From NCBI GenBank assembly GCA_944323625.1, contig CALUTD010000019.1, forward strand, positions 1 through 47,567: 47,567 nucleotides of DNA, given 5' to 3'. Positions 8,321 through 13,359 of the stretch are shown one piece after another; within the stretch, counting starts at the first letter, position 1; each line of letters opens with the position of its first letter. Position numbers and translations under genes: made by a program. This stretch comes from Candidatus Gastranaerophilales bacterium (GTDB taxonomy: Bacteria; Cyanobacteriota; Vampirovibrionia; Gastranaerophilales; Gastranaerophilaceae). The notes beneath the pieces are model-generated. The model worked only from the letters and a program-made list of their open reading frames with translations. It searched no databases and was not told the origin of the DNA.

Positions 8321-9586
8321 CTAAAACAAATAATCAAATTCTAAATGACCAATTTTTACGATATCGCCTTCTTTTACGCCGGCTTCTTTAAGTGCATCAA
8401 AAACTCCCATTGATTTAAGTATATTTTGGAATCGATATAACTGTTCGGTATTCCTGCCGTCGGTTACGTTTGCGAGTCTGAATATTTTTCCGCCTTCAAC
8501 AACAAATGTATGTTTATCAACTTTATATACACTGAAAGAGCTGTCATCATTATCAAAAGCACCTTCATCTTCTTCAATTTCAACCTCTATAACAGGTTTA
8601 GGTATTTCATCAACTTTTTTTGAAACAAAGTGCATAAACGGCTCTATATTTTCGTGAGTTGCAGCAGAAATCATAAATACATCATCAGAAAGCTTTTTAA
8701 ACTCTTCATAATATTTTTGTTTTATATTTTCGCAAACTGCATCTATTTTATTGAGTGCAATTATTTGATAAACTTGGGCCAGTCGTTCAGAGTGCTTTCT
8801 TAATTCTTCATTAATAAGTTTATAGTTTTCAATCGGATTTTCTTTTGTTAAATCCACAATATGAATTAAAAATCTGCATCTTTCAACATGTCTTAAAAAC
8901 TCATGCCCAAGGCCTGTACCTTCCGATGCTCCCTCGATTAAACCGGGAATATCGGCAACAACATAGCTCATACCCGTATCTCTTTTTACGACACCTAAAT
9001 GAGGGACAAGCGTTGTAAACGGATAGTCTGCTATTTTGGGTTTTGCAGAGCTTATCACGCTTATAAGAGTTGATTTACCGGCATTAGGCATGCCTAAAAG
9101 CCCGACATCCGCAATAAGTTTAAGTTCAAGCTCTAAAGTTCTTTCGATTCCGTTTTCACCCGGTTCGCAGAATTGGGGGGCTCTTTTTTGAGCGGTTGCA
9201 AAACAAGCGTTTCCTCGCCCGCCTCGTCCTCCTTTTGCCGCCAAAATAGTGTGCCCGTCTTGATTAAGGTCTGCAATGATTTTTCCTGTAGCGGAATCTT
9301 TTACAATAGTTCCTACAGGAACTTTTATATATAAGTCTTTTCCGCATTTTCCATGCTGTGTTTTTATATAACCGTTTTCACCGTTTTCGGCTTTAAAAAC
9401 GGATTGAAATTTAAAATCCATCAATGTTGATAAATCTTCGGTTGCAGTAATATAAACGTCACCGCCCTTGCCGCCGTTGCCGCCGGCAGGTCCGCCTTTA
9501 TCAACATATTTTTCCCTGCGCCAAGCTACAATTCCGTTGCCGCCTTTGCCTGATTGAATTTTAATTTTTGCTTTATCTAAAAACAT
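8321..9586 (-). CDS. obg: Obg family GTPase (CgtA)
   Basis: Essential GTPase acting in late assembly of the large ribosomal subunit and in stress responses. The 421-residue protein has the glycine-rich Obg fold (about 1-158), a GTPase domain with G1 GMPNAGKST, G3 DIPGLIEGA and G4 NKID, and a C-terminal OCT domain (about 350-421) ending in HLEFDYLF. An acidic linker, EIEEDEGAFDNDD, lies between the GTPase and OCT domains. It stands alone: the usual rplU-rpmA neighbours are absent. Confidence 0.96.
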   Translation of the reverse strand: MFLDKAKIKIQSGKGGNGIVAWRREKYVDKGGPAGGNGGKGGDVYITATEDLSTLMDFKFQSVFKAENGENGYIKTQHGKCGKDLYIKVPVGTIVKDSATGKIIADLNQDGHTILAAKGGRGGRGNACFATAQKRAPQFCEPGENGIERTLELELKLIADVGLLGMPNAGKSTLISVISSAKPKIADYPFTTLVPHLGVVKRDTGMSYVVADIPGLIEGASEGTGLGHEFLRHVERCRFLIHIVDLTKENPIENYKLINEELRKHSERLAQVYQIIALNKIDAVCENIKQKYYEEFKKLSDDVFMISAATHENIEPFMHFVSKKVDEIPKPVIEVEIEEDEGAFDNDDSSFSVYKVDKHTFVVEGGKIFRLANVTDGRNTEQLYRFQNILKSMGVFDALKEAGVKEGDIVKIGHLEFDYLF

Positions 9587-9626: not shown

Positions 9627-10325
9627 TTATAATAAACCTTCACACAATAAGAAACGCCCAAGGGGTATAACTTCGCAGTAATTTTTTAATGAATCTACAA
9701 AACATTGATTCTCGCAAAATCCTCCGGATAAATATATTTTTTCGGGTTTCTTAGCAAAGTTCCAAGCATTAAAGGCTATTCCGTGTATAAATTTTGAAAT
9801 TGCCGACTCTGCTCCTGAGCCTTTTGCTATATCATCCATTATTTTTTCTAGACCGAATATACCGCAGGTAATAACATATTTTTCATTTGTAAACTTTAAT
9901 TTTCGGACATCAATATTATAAAATTTTAAAAGCATTTCAATTGTTGCACCTGTAGAGCTTGAACAGCTGTTATTCCAATCCAAATCTTTAAAATTACCGT
10001 TTTTAAATGCTGCCCATTTTGAATCTCTGCTTCCCATATCGAGAATTAAAGCATCAGAAGATATTCTTTTTCTGAAACCTTGAATTAGTGCAATTACTTC
10101 ATTTTCATAGTCTTTTTTATCATTGAGCATACTCAAAGACATGTGTCCTGTTGCTTTAGAAAATTTAAAATTAATCTCCTTAAGCATTGATGAAGGCAAA
10201 ATATAATATTTCAGATTATTTTCATTTTTTACAAGATAATCATTATAATTATTCATCAGATTAGAATCGGATGTTTCAATAATTTTAGACCAGGTTGTTC
10301 CTGCATCAAGTACTATTTTGTTCAT
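9627..10325 (-). CDS. HgdC/BadF-type ASKHA iron-sulfur activator ATPase
   Basis: Resembles the activators of 2-hydroxyacyl-CoA dehydratases and double-cubane proteins, which use ATP to push a low-potential electron into a partner. Visible motifs: VLDAGTTWSK (phosphate 1), LDMGSRDSK (residues about 95-103, the counterpart of DIGGQDSK), NSCSSSTGATIE with C121 and ITCGIFGLE with C154. These last two are at the positions of the cysteines that hold the [4Fe-4S] cluster bridging the dimer. YLSGGFCEN matches the late adenosine loop. The 232-residue length is slightly short for the family. It is translationally coupled (ATGA overlap) to the upstream gene, its likely redox partner. The substrate cannot be named. 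Confidence 0.8.
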   Translation of the reverse strand: MNKIVLDAGTTWSKIIETSDSNLMNNYNDYLVKNENNLKYYILPSSMLKEINFKFSKATGHMSLSMLNDKKDYENEVIALIQGFRKRISSDALILDMGSRDSKWAAFKNGNFKDLDWNNSCSSSTGATIEMLLKFYNIDVRKLKFTNEKYVITCGIFGLEKIMDDIAKGSGAESAISKFIHGIAFNAWNFAKKPEKIYLSGGFCENQCFVDSLKNYCEVIPLGRFLLCEGLL

Positions 10326-11047
10326 CTTAACCTCAAAAAAGCTTCTATTTTAGCCTTTGTGGAATTTGTAATTTCGTCATCAATATCAATATAAAGACCG
10401 TTATACTTATCGGCAAGGTATTTAGCCAGCTGTGCTTTCGAACAAAAAGCCTGAGAGTAAAATACTGTCGGTACATTTTTATCCACATACATTTCAAGCT
10501 CTATATCGGCAGGCGCCATTGCTTCTGTACATCTTGTCCAGCCGTATACATGCGTTTCATCGGGAAATAATTCCAAGACAGATAAATCATTCGGTGGAAC
10601 TCCCCAAAATCCGAATTTTGCCTCACATTGAGTTAAATTATACGAATTTTGTTCATAAATACCCTTAGTTATCATCTCAATTTTTTGTCTTAAAGGAAGG
10701 TTTGATGTTGAAATTTTTACATCTTTCTTATATGTTTTTTCTTCAAATACGGAAGAAATTATATTAAACCCCATATCTTTTAAAAGTTCATAACAAAACC
10801 ATCCGCTGTCACATTTATCTTTGCCTATGGGGGCAAGTATTATAATTAAATTATCTTTATAGTGAAAAGCAGCATTAATTATATTTTTAATTATTGTACA
10901 ATATGATTCGGGCAAAATATCCTGCTTTGTGAAACCGTAATCTATATCCAAATCTACCCATTCGGCATTTGGATATTCATGTTTATATTTATTAATTAAT
11001 TCAGGATGAGGGTAGCCCCAAAAACCTATTATATTCTTATTTTTCAT
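10322..11047 (-). CDS. Cysteine-containing partner of ASKHA activator, unknown function
   Basis: A 241-residue soluble protein that I do not recognise. It has six cysteines (C50, C79, C85, C141, C173, C202) and an internal echo: GFWGYPHPEL near residue 8 recurs as GFWGVPPNDL near residue 146, suggesting a duplicated fold with about 140 residues per half. It is the first gene of a two-gene unit with the ASKHA activator. In known systems such an activator serves a cysteine-ligated iron-sulfur reductase. That makes this a candidate small acceptor protein, but it is much shorter than known HgdB/DCCP partners (about 380-430 residues). Confidence 0.65.
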   Translation of the reverse strand: MKNKNIIGFWGYPHPELINKYKHEYPNAEWVDLDIDYGFTKQDILPESYCTIIKNIINAAFHYKDNLIIILAPIGKDKCDSGWFCYELLKDMGFNIISSVFEEKTYKKDVKISTSNLPLRQKIEMITKGIYEQNSYNLTQCEAKFGFWGVPPNDLSVLELFPDETHVYGWTRCTEAMAPADIELEMYVDKNVPTVFYSQAFCSKAQLAKYLADKYNGLYIDIDDEITNSTKAKIEAFLRLR

Positions 11048-11141: not shown

Positions 11142-12362
11142 ATGGTAAATATGCCTGATAAAAAAATTAAGGAACAGAACAGAGATGAATTAACCGCTTT
11201 GGATTGGCGGAGTTCTTTGTTCTCTGAAACAGATAAAACTATTAACCTTGCTACTTTGTTTAGCGGTATAGGCTCTATTGAACAGGCTTTTAAACGTCTC
11301 AATCTTAAACATAAAATTGTATTTGCCGGAGATATAGACCCGTTTGTAAAGCAAAGTTATTTTGCAAATTATGATATTAGTGAAGAAAATTGGCACAATG
11401 ATATAACTAAATTTTCAGCACAAAAATATAGAGGAGAGGTTGATTTATTGGTGGGCGGAAGCCCGTGTCAGGCATTTTCAATAGTGGGAAAACGAAAAGG
11501 GCTTGAAGATACAAGGGGAACCCTTTTTTATGATTTTGCACGTATTGTTGATGAATCTCAACCAAAAGTTTTTATCTATGAAAATGTTAAAGGACTTGTA
11601 AATCATGACGAGGGAAAAACCTGGCAAATTGTACAGAATACATTTCGTGCACTTGGATACAAAATTTTTTCACAGGTTTTAAACAGTAAAGATTACGGTA
11701 TTCCTCAAAATCGTGAACGGATTATTGTTGTCGGATTTAAAGATAATAATACCGACTTTACCTTCCCCGCTGTTATACCGCTAACAAGGACAATGCAAGA
11801 TTTTTTAGAGGATTATATTGATTCAAAATATTATTTGAAAGAAAAAGGCATAAAATTTGTAACAAGTACAAAAAACAGAAAAAAACAGTATACTCAAATA
11901 AACGGAGAAATTGCATTATGCCAAAAGGCAAATCAGCAGTTCAACTGGCATGGTGATTTCATTTTTGAAAAAGCAAACAAAGAAGATTTTGACGAGTTTA
12001 TTTTTGATGTATCCAAAGTAGAAGAAAAATATTATTTATCCGAAAAAGTAAAAAATTACGTTTTAGCAGGAGGAACAAAAAATTTTAAAACCAGTAAAGA
12101 AACTGATTTAACGGTTGCAAGACCACTACTGCAAACTATGCATAAAATGCACAGAGCGGGAGTTGATAACTATGTTACACACAATAAAGGCAGAATAAGA
12201 AAATTAACTCCGCGAGAATGCCTTAGACTTATGGGATTTAAAGATGATTTTAAAATTGTGGTAAGTGATACTCAAATGTACAGGCAAGCAGGAAACAGCA
12301 TCGTTTCCGATGTCTTGATTGCAATTTTAAAACAAATGGATATAACAAAATATGGAAGATAA
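11142..12362 (+). CDS. C5-cytosine DNA methyltransferase (type II R-M)
   Basis: Methylates cytosine at position 5 within a short recognition site, protecting DNA from the nuclease encoded next to it. Motifs in order: LATLFSGIGS (SAM binding, I), GGSPCQAFS with catalytic C109 (IV), ENVKG (VI), QNRERI (VIII), and RQAGNSIVSDV at the C-terminus (X). The stretch from about 215 to 345 is the variable target-recognition region, so the site cannot be read. Two ATGs (11142 and 11151) are possible starts. The stop overlaps the start of the HNH gene by 11 bases. TATAAT at 11113-11118 could be its -10 element, but no good -35 is present. Confidence 0.93.
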   Translation: MVNMPDKKIKEQNRDELTALDWRSSLFSETDKTINLATLFSGIGSIEQAFKRLNLKHKIVFAGDIDPFVKQSYFANYDISEENWHNDITKFSAQKYRGEVDLLVGGSPCQAFSIVGKRKGLEDTRGTLFYDFARIVDESQPKVFIYENVKGLVNHDEGKTWQIVQNTFRALGYKIFSQVLNSKDYGIPQNRERIIVVGFKDNNTDFTFPAVIPLTRTMQDFLEDYIDSKYYLKEKGIKFVTSTKNRKKQYTQINGEIALCQKANQQFNWHGDFIFEKANKEDFDEFIFDVSKVEEKYYLSEKVKNYVLAGGTKNFKTSKETDLTVARPLLQTMHKMHRAGVDNYVTHNKGRIRKLTPRECLRLMGFKDDFKIVVSDTQMYRQAGNSIVSDVLIAILKQMDITKYGR

Positions 12363-13359
12363 AATTAAAATTGATAATGTTGAATATAGTATTATCGATA
12401 CTATTGAAAAAATGACAGTTCCTGACTGTTTTGTTGTTTCATCAAATACTATAGGAAAAGGACATGGCGAAGCAAAATTTTATATAGGAAGCAGAAATAA
12501 ATCCGAAATTTTAGATTTTTTTGGCGGACAAGGCTTTAATGTTAAATGTTTCATCAAAAAAAATGACCTTCAAAGCTATATGAAAGAGGTTAAAGATGAA
12601 TATTTTAACCCCGAACAAAACTATACAGATAAAAATAATTTTCCAAACCTATGGGGTGAAAGACTGAATAAAATTAATCAGTTACAAGATATTGAATATT
12701 TTAATTTAATTGACCAAATACAAATTCAGGGTAACAGATTCTATGTTTCATCAGATAAAATTAATACGAGAAAATTTAAATATAAAGGTTATCAAATATT
12801 GAGAGAAATATCACTTCCAAATATTACTTATTTGGCGGCAATAAAATTAAAAAATAAAGATAATAATATTTTGTATTACTTAAGACTGTTTGTTGAATAT
12901 TATGCAGAAACGGAAAACTCTGTAACAATAACAGAACAGATAAATAAAATTGAAAATTCAAATACAACACCCGAAGAAAAAATACAGCTTACGAAAGCAA
13001 GGGTGGGACAAGGTCAATACAGGCAAAAATTACTCGAAAATTGTCCGTTTTGTCCGATAACTTTGGTTTCTGATGACAGATTACTAATAGCAAGTCATAT
13101 AAAACCATGGGCAAAATCTGACAGTAAAGAAAAAATAGACCCGTATAACGGATTTATGTTTACTCCTAATATAGATTTCTTGTTTGACAGAGGATTTATA
13201 ACATTTACGGATGAAAAACGTATGTTAATTTCTCCCTGGCTATCTAAAATGACTTGTTCCAAACTTAATATCTCACCAAATAAAAAATATGATATGCTCC
13301 TTATAGAAGGAAGAGAAAAATATTTAGAATATCACCGAAAAGAAATTTTTAAAGCATAA
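12352..13359 (+). CDS. HNH-family restriction endonuclease
   Basis: Probable restriction partner of the upstream methyltransferase. The 335-residue protein has an unrecognised N-terminal two thirds and a C-terminal HNH_2-type nuclease domain (about 225-290): C231 and C234 in CPFC, ASHIKPW with H249, DPYNGFMF with N266, and FLFDRGFITF. The usual histidine of the last helix appears as asparagine in TPNIDFLF, as in some other members. The gene overlaps the methyltransferase by 11 bases, which fits a coupled type II system. The cut site is unknown. Confidence 0.85.
   Translation: MEDKIKIDNVEYSIIDTIEKMTVPDCFVVSSNTIGKGHGEAKFYIGSRNKSEILDFFGGQGFNVKCFIKKNDLQSYMKEVKDEYFNPEQNYTDKNNFPNLWGERLNKINQLQDIEYFNLIDQIQIQGNRFYVSSDKINTRKFKYKGYQILREISLPNITYLAAIKLKNKDNNILYYLRLFVEYYAETENSVTITEQINKIENSNTTPEEKIQLTKARVGQGQYRQKLLENCPFCPITLVSDDRLLIASHIKPWAKSDSKEKIDPYNGFMFTPNIDFLFDRGFITFTDEKRMLISPWLSKMTCSKLNISPNKKYDMLLIEGREKYLEYHRKEIFKA

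Follow-up and report, generated by a model that had tools for sequence, protein, structure and literature searches.

Two overlapping genes of a Candidatus Gastranaerophilales bacterium form a conserved pair that, as we judge fairly likely, encodes a minimal, CoA-independent low-potential reductase driven by an archerase. This reading is carried by the predicted fold of one product, hereafter the partner, by the conservation and register of its cysteines, and by the tight pairing of its gene with that of an ATPase activator. The pair was analysed within its entire 47,567 nt contig (CALUTD010000019.1), referred to here as the window, in which the following genes were located:

10322..11047, minus strand: partner gene, 241 aa (ORF)
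9627..10325, minus strand: activator gene, 232 aa (ORF)
10322..10325, minus strand: 4 bp overlap of the partner and activator genes (from ORF coordinates)
8321-9586, downstream of the pair: obg (named by eye from the sequence)
11142-13359, plus strand: C5 cytosine methyltransferase, then an HNH-type restriction endonuclease (by PADLOC: MTase_II at 4.6e-94, HNH at 6.2e-24)

The initial annotation had described an activator coupled to a small partner protein, and both reading frames were present on the minus strand at these coordinates. The two genes at 11142-13359 make up a type II restriction-modification system, which lies upstream of the partner gene and is transcribed away from it.

Relatives of the partner were present in 54 of 58 sampled relatives, with identities of 52-57 % in other families of the order; a search of a class sample with the single sequence found it in six genomes, our own included, out of 146. 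A partner profile (A1) matched 73 of 386 genomes in a phylum sample, again including our own, only one of which (G210) fell outside the order; an activator profile (A2), applied at E up to 1e-20, also matched 73 of the 386. Both genes were found together in 72 of these genomes, the partner alone in one (G486), the activator alone in one (G444) and neither in 312, these being raw counts that include kinship among the genomes and do not amount to a probability. Genera g19 and g23 each contained genomes with both genes and a genome with neither. The two genes lay side by side in 53 of the 72 genomes and apart in 19, all of the latter belonging to genera g23 and g83 and retaining both genes. At the level of loci, 81 of 97 distinct partner loci carried the activator in the same locus, whilst the other 16 included contig ends. 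Where the genes were adjoining, the pairing was tight: translational overlap was seen in 61 of 81 pairs (4 bp in 48 and 1 bp in 13), the gap was at most 30 bp in 80, and the remaining pair was separated by 116 bp. Plasmids and viral contigs that we searched yielded no relative of the partner. A scan of genome contigs by exact peptide words returned 15 loci, all assigned to Gastranaerophilales, a cyanobacterium or an unclassified bacterium; every one of them had at least 62 % identity, whereas families f2-f7 contain relatives at 52-57 %, so that a scan relying on such words does not establish absence outside the phylum.

The 232 aa activator is an archerase-type ASKHA ATPase. TIGR00241 matched it at 3.6e-12 and 46.3 bits, below the curated cut-off of 125.4, and phmmer aligned it with HadI (2.5e-6) and HgdC (6.7e-6). 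Its AlphaFold2 model had a pLDDT of 90.5, with only residues 120-122, in the cluster loop, falling under 50. Structural comparison by VIA placed the model closest to archerases (Z 18.9-19.9), namely DCCP-R (19.9), MbdQ (19.6 and 19.5), HadI (19.3 and 19.1) and HgdC (18.9), which, like our activator, combine the ASKHA fold with a pair of cluster cysteines in each subunit. A search that gave 131 hits, 81 of them distinct, was reduced to 70 non-redundant activator sequences, in which the following residues were tracked:

9963..9965, minus strand: activator C121, predicted ligand of a [4Fe-4S] cluster common to the activator dimer (70/70)
9864..9866, minus strand: activator C154, predicted second cluster ligand per subunit (70/70)
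9702..9716, minus strand: activator C204 and C208 in SGGFCENxCF (C204 70/70, C208 69/70)

Retention of both cluster cysteines, claimed initially for the single sequence, is therefore a property of the family, and C121 and C154 were also invariant in an alignment of ten sequences that included known-type activators (10/10). In that comparison the activator reads GSRD where other activators have the GGQD motif. C204 and C208 are additional cysteines within the loop GGV-A-x-N (GG-x-x-x-N), with no counterpart at those columns in six of six other full-length activators; together they may act as a redox switch or bind a second metal. The alternative that the system has no redox role, being an ASKHA kinase-like ATPase beside an unrelated zinc- or structure-binding cysteine protein, could appeal to the sub-threshold TIGR00241 match and to pantothenate kinases as the second-best fold class of the activator model (VIA Z 16.8 and below). 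We regard it as highly improbable, given that the cluster cysteines are kept throughout the 70 relatives, that archerase-type entries score 2-3 Z units above the kinases, and that the partner independently shows the fold of archerase partners.

Sequence searches did not place the partner in a described family. There was no match to any Pfam or NCBIfam family, nor in PHROGs or PADLOC, and a SKI match (E 0.024) was below the SKI cut-off. PF06050 (HGD-D) matched 0 of 33 members of the partner family at E up to 1. Searches of the PDB with phmmer and hmmsearch returned chance matches only, such as free serine kinase, and no HGD-D chain, whilst hhalign against 12 BzdN/DCCP-type and 11 HadB-type proteins gave nothing significant; the best signal, at a non-significant E of 0.024, covered the C50-C79 stretch in the expected register, and similarity elsewhere was at chance level. 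Because no sequence match was significant, kinship of the partner with HGD-D proteins rests on the predicted fold together with the register of its cysteines. Counting as canonical only proteins in which PF06050 passes 1e-10, HGD-D was found in 1 of 194 phylum genomes, and not in the genome of the window (G000). Most PF06050 matches began at about position 240 of the profile, and so included just its final portion, in frames of 330-420 aa; they presumably represent unrelated proteins. A separate canonical dehydratase cluster occurs in another genome of the same genus (G003, L085 920-3537), encoding a HadB-like protein of 382 aa, a second HGD-D-like protein of 312 aa and an apparently truncated activator ORF of 175 aa; none of the other 27 genomes in that comparison had PF06050 matches of this strength.

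The AlphaFold2 model of the partner (pLDDT 92.2, pTM 0.88) returned seven Foldseek matches in the PDB at E up to 1e-3 (3.3e-7 to 1.3e-4, probability 1.00), all of which were chains of 3-methylbenzoyl-CoA reductase (MbdN), 2-hydroxyisocaproyl-CoA dehydratase (HadC) or DCCP. VIA agreed, with nine DCCP/HAD/BCR rows at Z 10.6-13.8 covering 219-231 of the 241 residues and the next unrelated row at 6.2. The model contains the two four-stranded alpha/beta lobes of the BCR I/HAD/DCCP fold, in which strand-helix linkers bind the clusters, with eight strands in total (lobe 1: 6-9, 29-32, 67-73 and 96-99; lobe 2: 145-148, 165-168, 194-199 and 218-222). It begins directly at strand 6-9, and only 16 residues separate helix 119-128 from strand 145-148. 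In BzdN, as described in PMC11971306, an intermediate domain of 72 residues (156-227) forms the CoA channel together with the N-terminal helix. As modelled, the partner is thus a reduced dehydratase/double-cubane fold: its two alpha/beta lobes remain, and both elements that build this channel, the N-terminal helix and a helical domain of about 70 residues, are missing. The initial estimate that it is about half the size of known partners roughly holds, at 241 aa against 373-447 aa for solved relatives.

Conservation within the partner family was assessed on 82 sequences, obtained from 155 ORF hits (97 distinct) after removal of rows with identity of at least 95 % or length under 180 aa. The positions of interest were as follows:

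11009..11026, minus strand: first GFWG motif (GFWGYP, residues 8-13), in the loop that follows the first strand of lobe 1 (from sequence and model)
10898..10900, minus strand: C50, predicted cluster ligand at the place of BzdO C95 and BzdN C73 (82/82), start of helix 51-62
10811..10813, minus strand: C79, predicted cluster ligand at the place of BzdO C128 and BzdN C100 (82/82), start of helix 80-91
10592..10612, minus strand: second GFWG motif (GFWGVPP, residues 146-152), in the loop after strand 1 of lobe 2
10529..10531, minus strand: C173 in GWTRCxE, putatively equivalent, going by the register, to BzdN C263, a distal double-cubane ligand
10442..10444, minus strand: C202, predicted cluster ligand at the place of BzdO C380 and BzdN C327 (82/82), just before helix 204-214

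Poor conservation of the partner's cysteines, or their wide separation in the predicted fold, had been named at the outset as a result that would refute the idea of a coupled electron system. C50, C79 and C202 were kept in all 82 relatives and C173 in 79, the other three having Ala, Ala and Met. The description of a six-cysteine protein applies to this sequence but not to its family, as C85 was kept in 4 of 82 relatives and C141 in 41; since only four of the six are conserved, we treat the partner as a four-cysteine family, and the substitutions at C173 imply that a four-cysteine site is not obligatory. R172 and E175, which flank C173 in GWTRCxE, were invariant (82/82). A duplicated GFWG motif had also been reported, and this internal repeat was recovered when the halves of the protein were compared profile against profile (E 7.8e-5 over 26 columns), whilst in the single sequence it was borderline, 95 of 2000 shuffles reaching the same score. 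F147, W148, G149, V150 and P152 of the second motif were each present in 82 of 82 relatives, and W10 of the first in 78. In the model, the repeat marks the two lobes, each of which begins with a GFWG loop; neither this nor the reduced dehydratase/double-cubane fold of the partner had been recognised initially.

The register of these cysteines was compared with that of characterized clusters. According to PMC11971306, the catalytic [4Fe-4S] of BzdO is bound by C95, C128 and C380 and the [8Fe-9S] of BzdN by C36, C73, C100, C263, C293 and C327, with the N-terminal ends of helices 74:85, 103:113 and 327-343 lining the cavity. An alignment of 12 BzdN/DCCP-type proteins displayed six cysteine-rich columns with spacing close to that of BzdN. 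The C73-C100 spacing is 27 residues in BzdN, 27 in a BcrC-like protein and 30 in YjiM, and 29 in the partner (C50-C79). The C100-C263 spacing is 163, 163 and 165, respectively, against 94 in the partner (C79-C173), a shortfall of about 70 residues that is close to the size of the 72-residue intermediate domain. For C263-C327 the values are 64, 90 and 62 against 29 (C173-C202), and about 35 residues are missing from lobe 2 of the partner, removing the C293 loop. In the predicted fold C50, C79 and C202 mark the beginning of helices 2, 3 and 3', respectively, and by order, helix position and spacing they are predicted to occupy the three catalytic [4Fe-4S] ligand positions, equivalent to the proximal cubane set; the cluster itself is likewise a prediction. 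Fold and register together would bring the cysteines into one spatial group. C173 follows strand 2 of lobe 2. We considered its equivalence to BzdN C293 and rejected this, as the 12-sequence alignment puts it at C263.

With four conserved cysteines, the partner does not have the six-ligand [8Fe-9S] set of DCCP, and the C36- and C293-type positions carry no conserved cysteine; the sole exception is residue 12 of the G210 protein. The first GFWG motif appears to coincide with the C36-type ligand place of BzdN to within one residue. As C36 and C293 have no counterpart and the C293 loop is removed, the GFWG tryptophans would lie near the sites of the lost cluster ligands. They may in this respect resemble Trp46 of BzdO, which, according to PMC11971306, occupies the space of the lost sub-cluster. 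The G210 partner (L121 2467-3189), from outside the order, is the most distant of the set and reads GFYGCPP, with a cysteine in its first GFWG loop; it is possibly a less reduced form with a cysteine near the lost C36-type ligand.

Among known systems, DCCP/DCCP-R (7yyl, 7yzm, 6eno; the E. coli YjiM/YjiL type) was the top structural match of both proteins. It likewise consists of two genes, for one activator and one partner, with no CoA ester known as substrate, and by eye the loops of YjiM resemble those around C50, C79, C173 and C202. DCCP is longer, however, at about 383-421 aa, has six double-cubane ligands where the partner has four conserved cysteines, and possesses a helical domain and N-terminal extension that the partner lacks, whilst our activator has two extra cysteines. 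Class I benzoyl-CoA reductases (BzdNO, MbdON-PQ) share the two alpha/beta lobes around a cluster, which in the partner is predicted, as well as an activator resembling ours (MbdQ) and the C95/C128/C380 set, but they have two dissimilar subunits, CoA-channel helices and an [8Fe-9S] ligand set. The 2-hydroxyisocaproyl-CoA dehydratase HadBC with HadI, and the 2-hydroxyglutaryl-CoA dehydratase activator HgdC, show the shared fold (Z 13.4 to 3o3n_B) and the activator similarity noted above for HadI, yet the partner has about 60 % of the length, is one subunit and has no PF06050 sequence match. Judged by these features, the partner belongs with neither the 2-hydroxyacyl-CoA dehydratases nor the DCCPs; the pair probably works like a small DCCP. 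In the literature searched we found no account of a reduced HGD-D/DCCP pair, nor of HGD-D chemistry in Gastranaerophilales.

The same fold family also includes, according to PMC11971306, the small desulfidase TudS, a single domain with a [4Fe-5S] cluster. A sulfur-handling enzyme would fit this placement: as in TudS, sulfur from a thio-compound would be accepted at the open site of the cluster, which ATP-driven reduction would then reset. We consider this a very distant prospect. TudS has one lobe against the partner's two, and its family PF04463 matched neither the partner nor the genome of the window, and was not among the families matched by 33 partner relatives. To our knowledge, TudS has no ATPase partner.

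The genomic neighbourhood offered leads to a substrate rather than evidence of one. No neighbour was universal to the pair across the genera tabulated. The commonest, a GltP-type symporter, occurred in 9 of 31 genera, lying upstream on the same strand in nine of ten loci and opposite in one. It was recorded directly upstream on the same strand in L131, L132, L135, L137, L124, L043, L210 and L216-L218, overlapping the partner gene by 1 bp in L131, L135 and L137. The residues that we take, by analogy with GltPh, to specify an acidic substrate were kept in 15 of 16 aligned copies. As evidence for an amino-acid substrate the symporter is weakened by its wider distribution: among the matches listed, 51 family f1 genomes carry it, only six of them with the partner. 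Being a core gene that is present also in genomes without the pair, it is kept as a lead only. A further lead is an AGCS amino-acid carrier, encoded immediately upstream of the unlinked activator, and on its strand, in five loci of genus g83 (L193, L197, L199, L200 and L202), at 1-20 bp in L193, L197 and L200; it scored above the TIGR00835 cut-off in all four of the five loci that were tested. In one g87 locus (L123 4409-8576), gcvT, gcvH and a gcvP subunit gene are followed on one strand by the partner, which overlaps gcvP by 4 bp, and the activator. This glycine cleavage operon and an SNF2 helicase upstream of the pair in g90, g92 and g95 were both rejected as functional context, each being confined to few genera.

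These observations bear on two further readings. The first, a minimal dehydratase of 2-hydroxyacyl-CoA or reductase of acyl-CoA with a new way of binding its CoA thioester, would agree with the fold and with the three-cysteine cluster place shared with HadB and BzdO. A CoA-transferase pair is encoded in the same genome, making CoA chemistry nearby possible, and the symporter could feed glutamate fermentation. We nevertheless find this reading unlikely: the N-terminal and intermediate CoA-channel helices of the BzdNO type are absent from the partner, there is no second dissimilar subunit, nearly all matched genomes having a single partner gene, and most of the listed f1 genomes with the symporter had no partner. 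Alternatively, the partner may act as a reductive activase that hands low-potential electrons to a third metalloenzyme and does not itself reduce a small substrate, comparable in principle to the ATP-driven MCR activation machinery. Its small size, its bare cluster scaffold and the want of a fixed metabolic neighbour accord with such a role, to which we assign a small but slightly greater likelihood; no third gene is co-conserved beside the pair across all genera, however, and no candidate client was found among its neighbours.

We therefore return to a CoA-independent, archerase-driven reductase as the preferred reading. The initial proposal of a minimal ATP-driven low-potential electron system gains support from the conserved cysteines and from the predicted archerase-partner fold. 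In such a system the activator, probably a homodimer, would hold one [4Fe-4S] between two C121/C154 pairs, accept an electron from a donor such as ferredoxin and drive it onto the partner at the expense of ATP. The lobes of the partner would hold the predicted [4Fe-4S] between them through C50, C79 and C202, the fourth cluster site being either open or touched by C173. The substrate would probably be a small molecule other than a CoA ester, as for DCCP, because the CoA-channel helices are missing. A more specific and more tentative picture is that of a CoA-free, ATP-driven super-reductase of fewer than 250 residues per chain, derived from a double-cubane ancestor cut to two bare lobes, in which the GFWG tryptophan loops take the place of the lost ligands and make the cluster accessible to a small substrate other than a CoA ester, whilst the nucleotide site of the activator is flanked by another cysteine pair, peculiar to this family.

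Known reductases of this ATP-driven type are large and, DCCP apart, confined to CoA esters, a restriction that, according to PMC11971306, is what currently limits enzymatic Birch reduction. A natural two-gene, reduced version with a bare cluster site would reveal the least scaffold that such chemistry needs, and would offer a small system for studying how ATP is coupled to electron transfer. The pair resembles a pared-down form of the ATP-powered enzymes that carry out the hardest reductions in biology, but seems to lack the portion in which the CoA substrate is held. It has been kept in different families of one order of uncultured bacteria from the gut and the environment, which are non-photosynthetic relatives of cyanobacteria.
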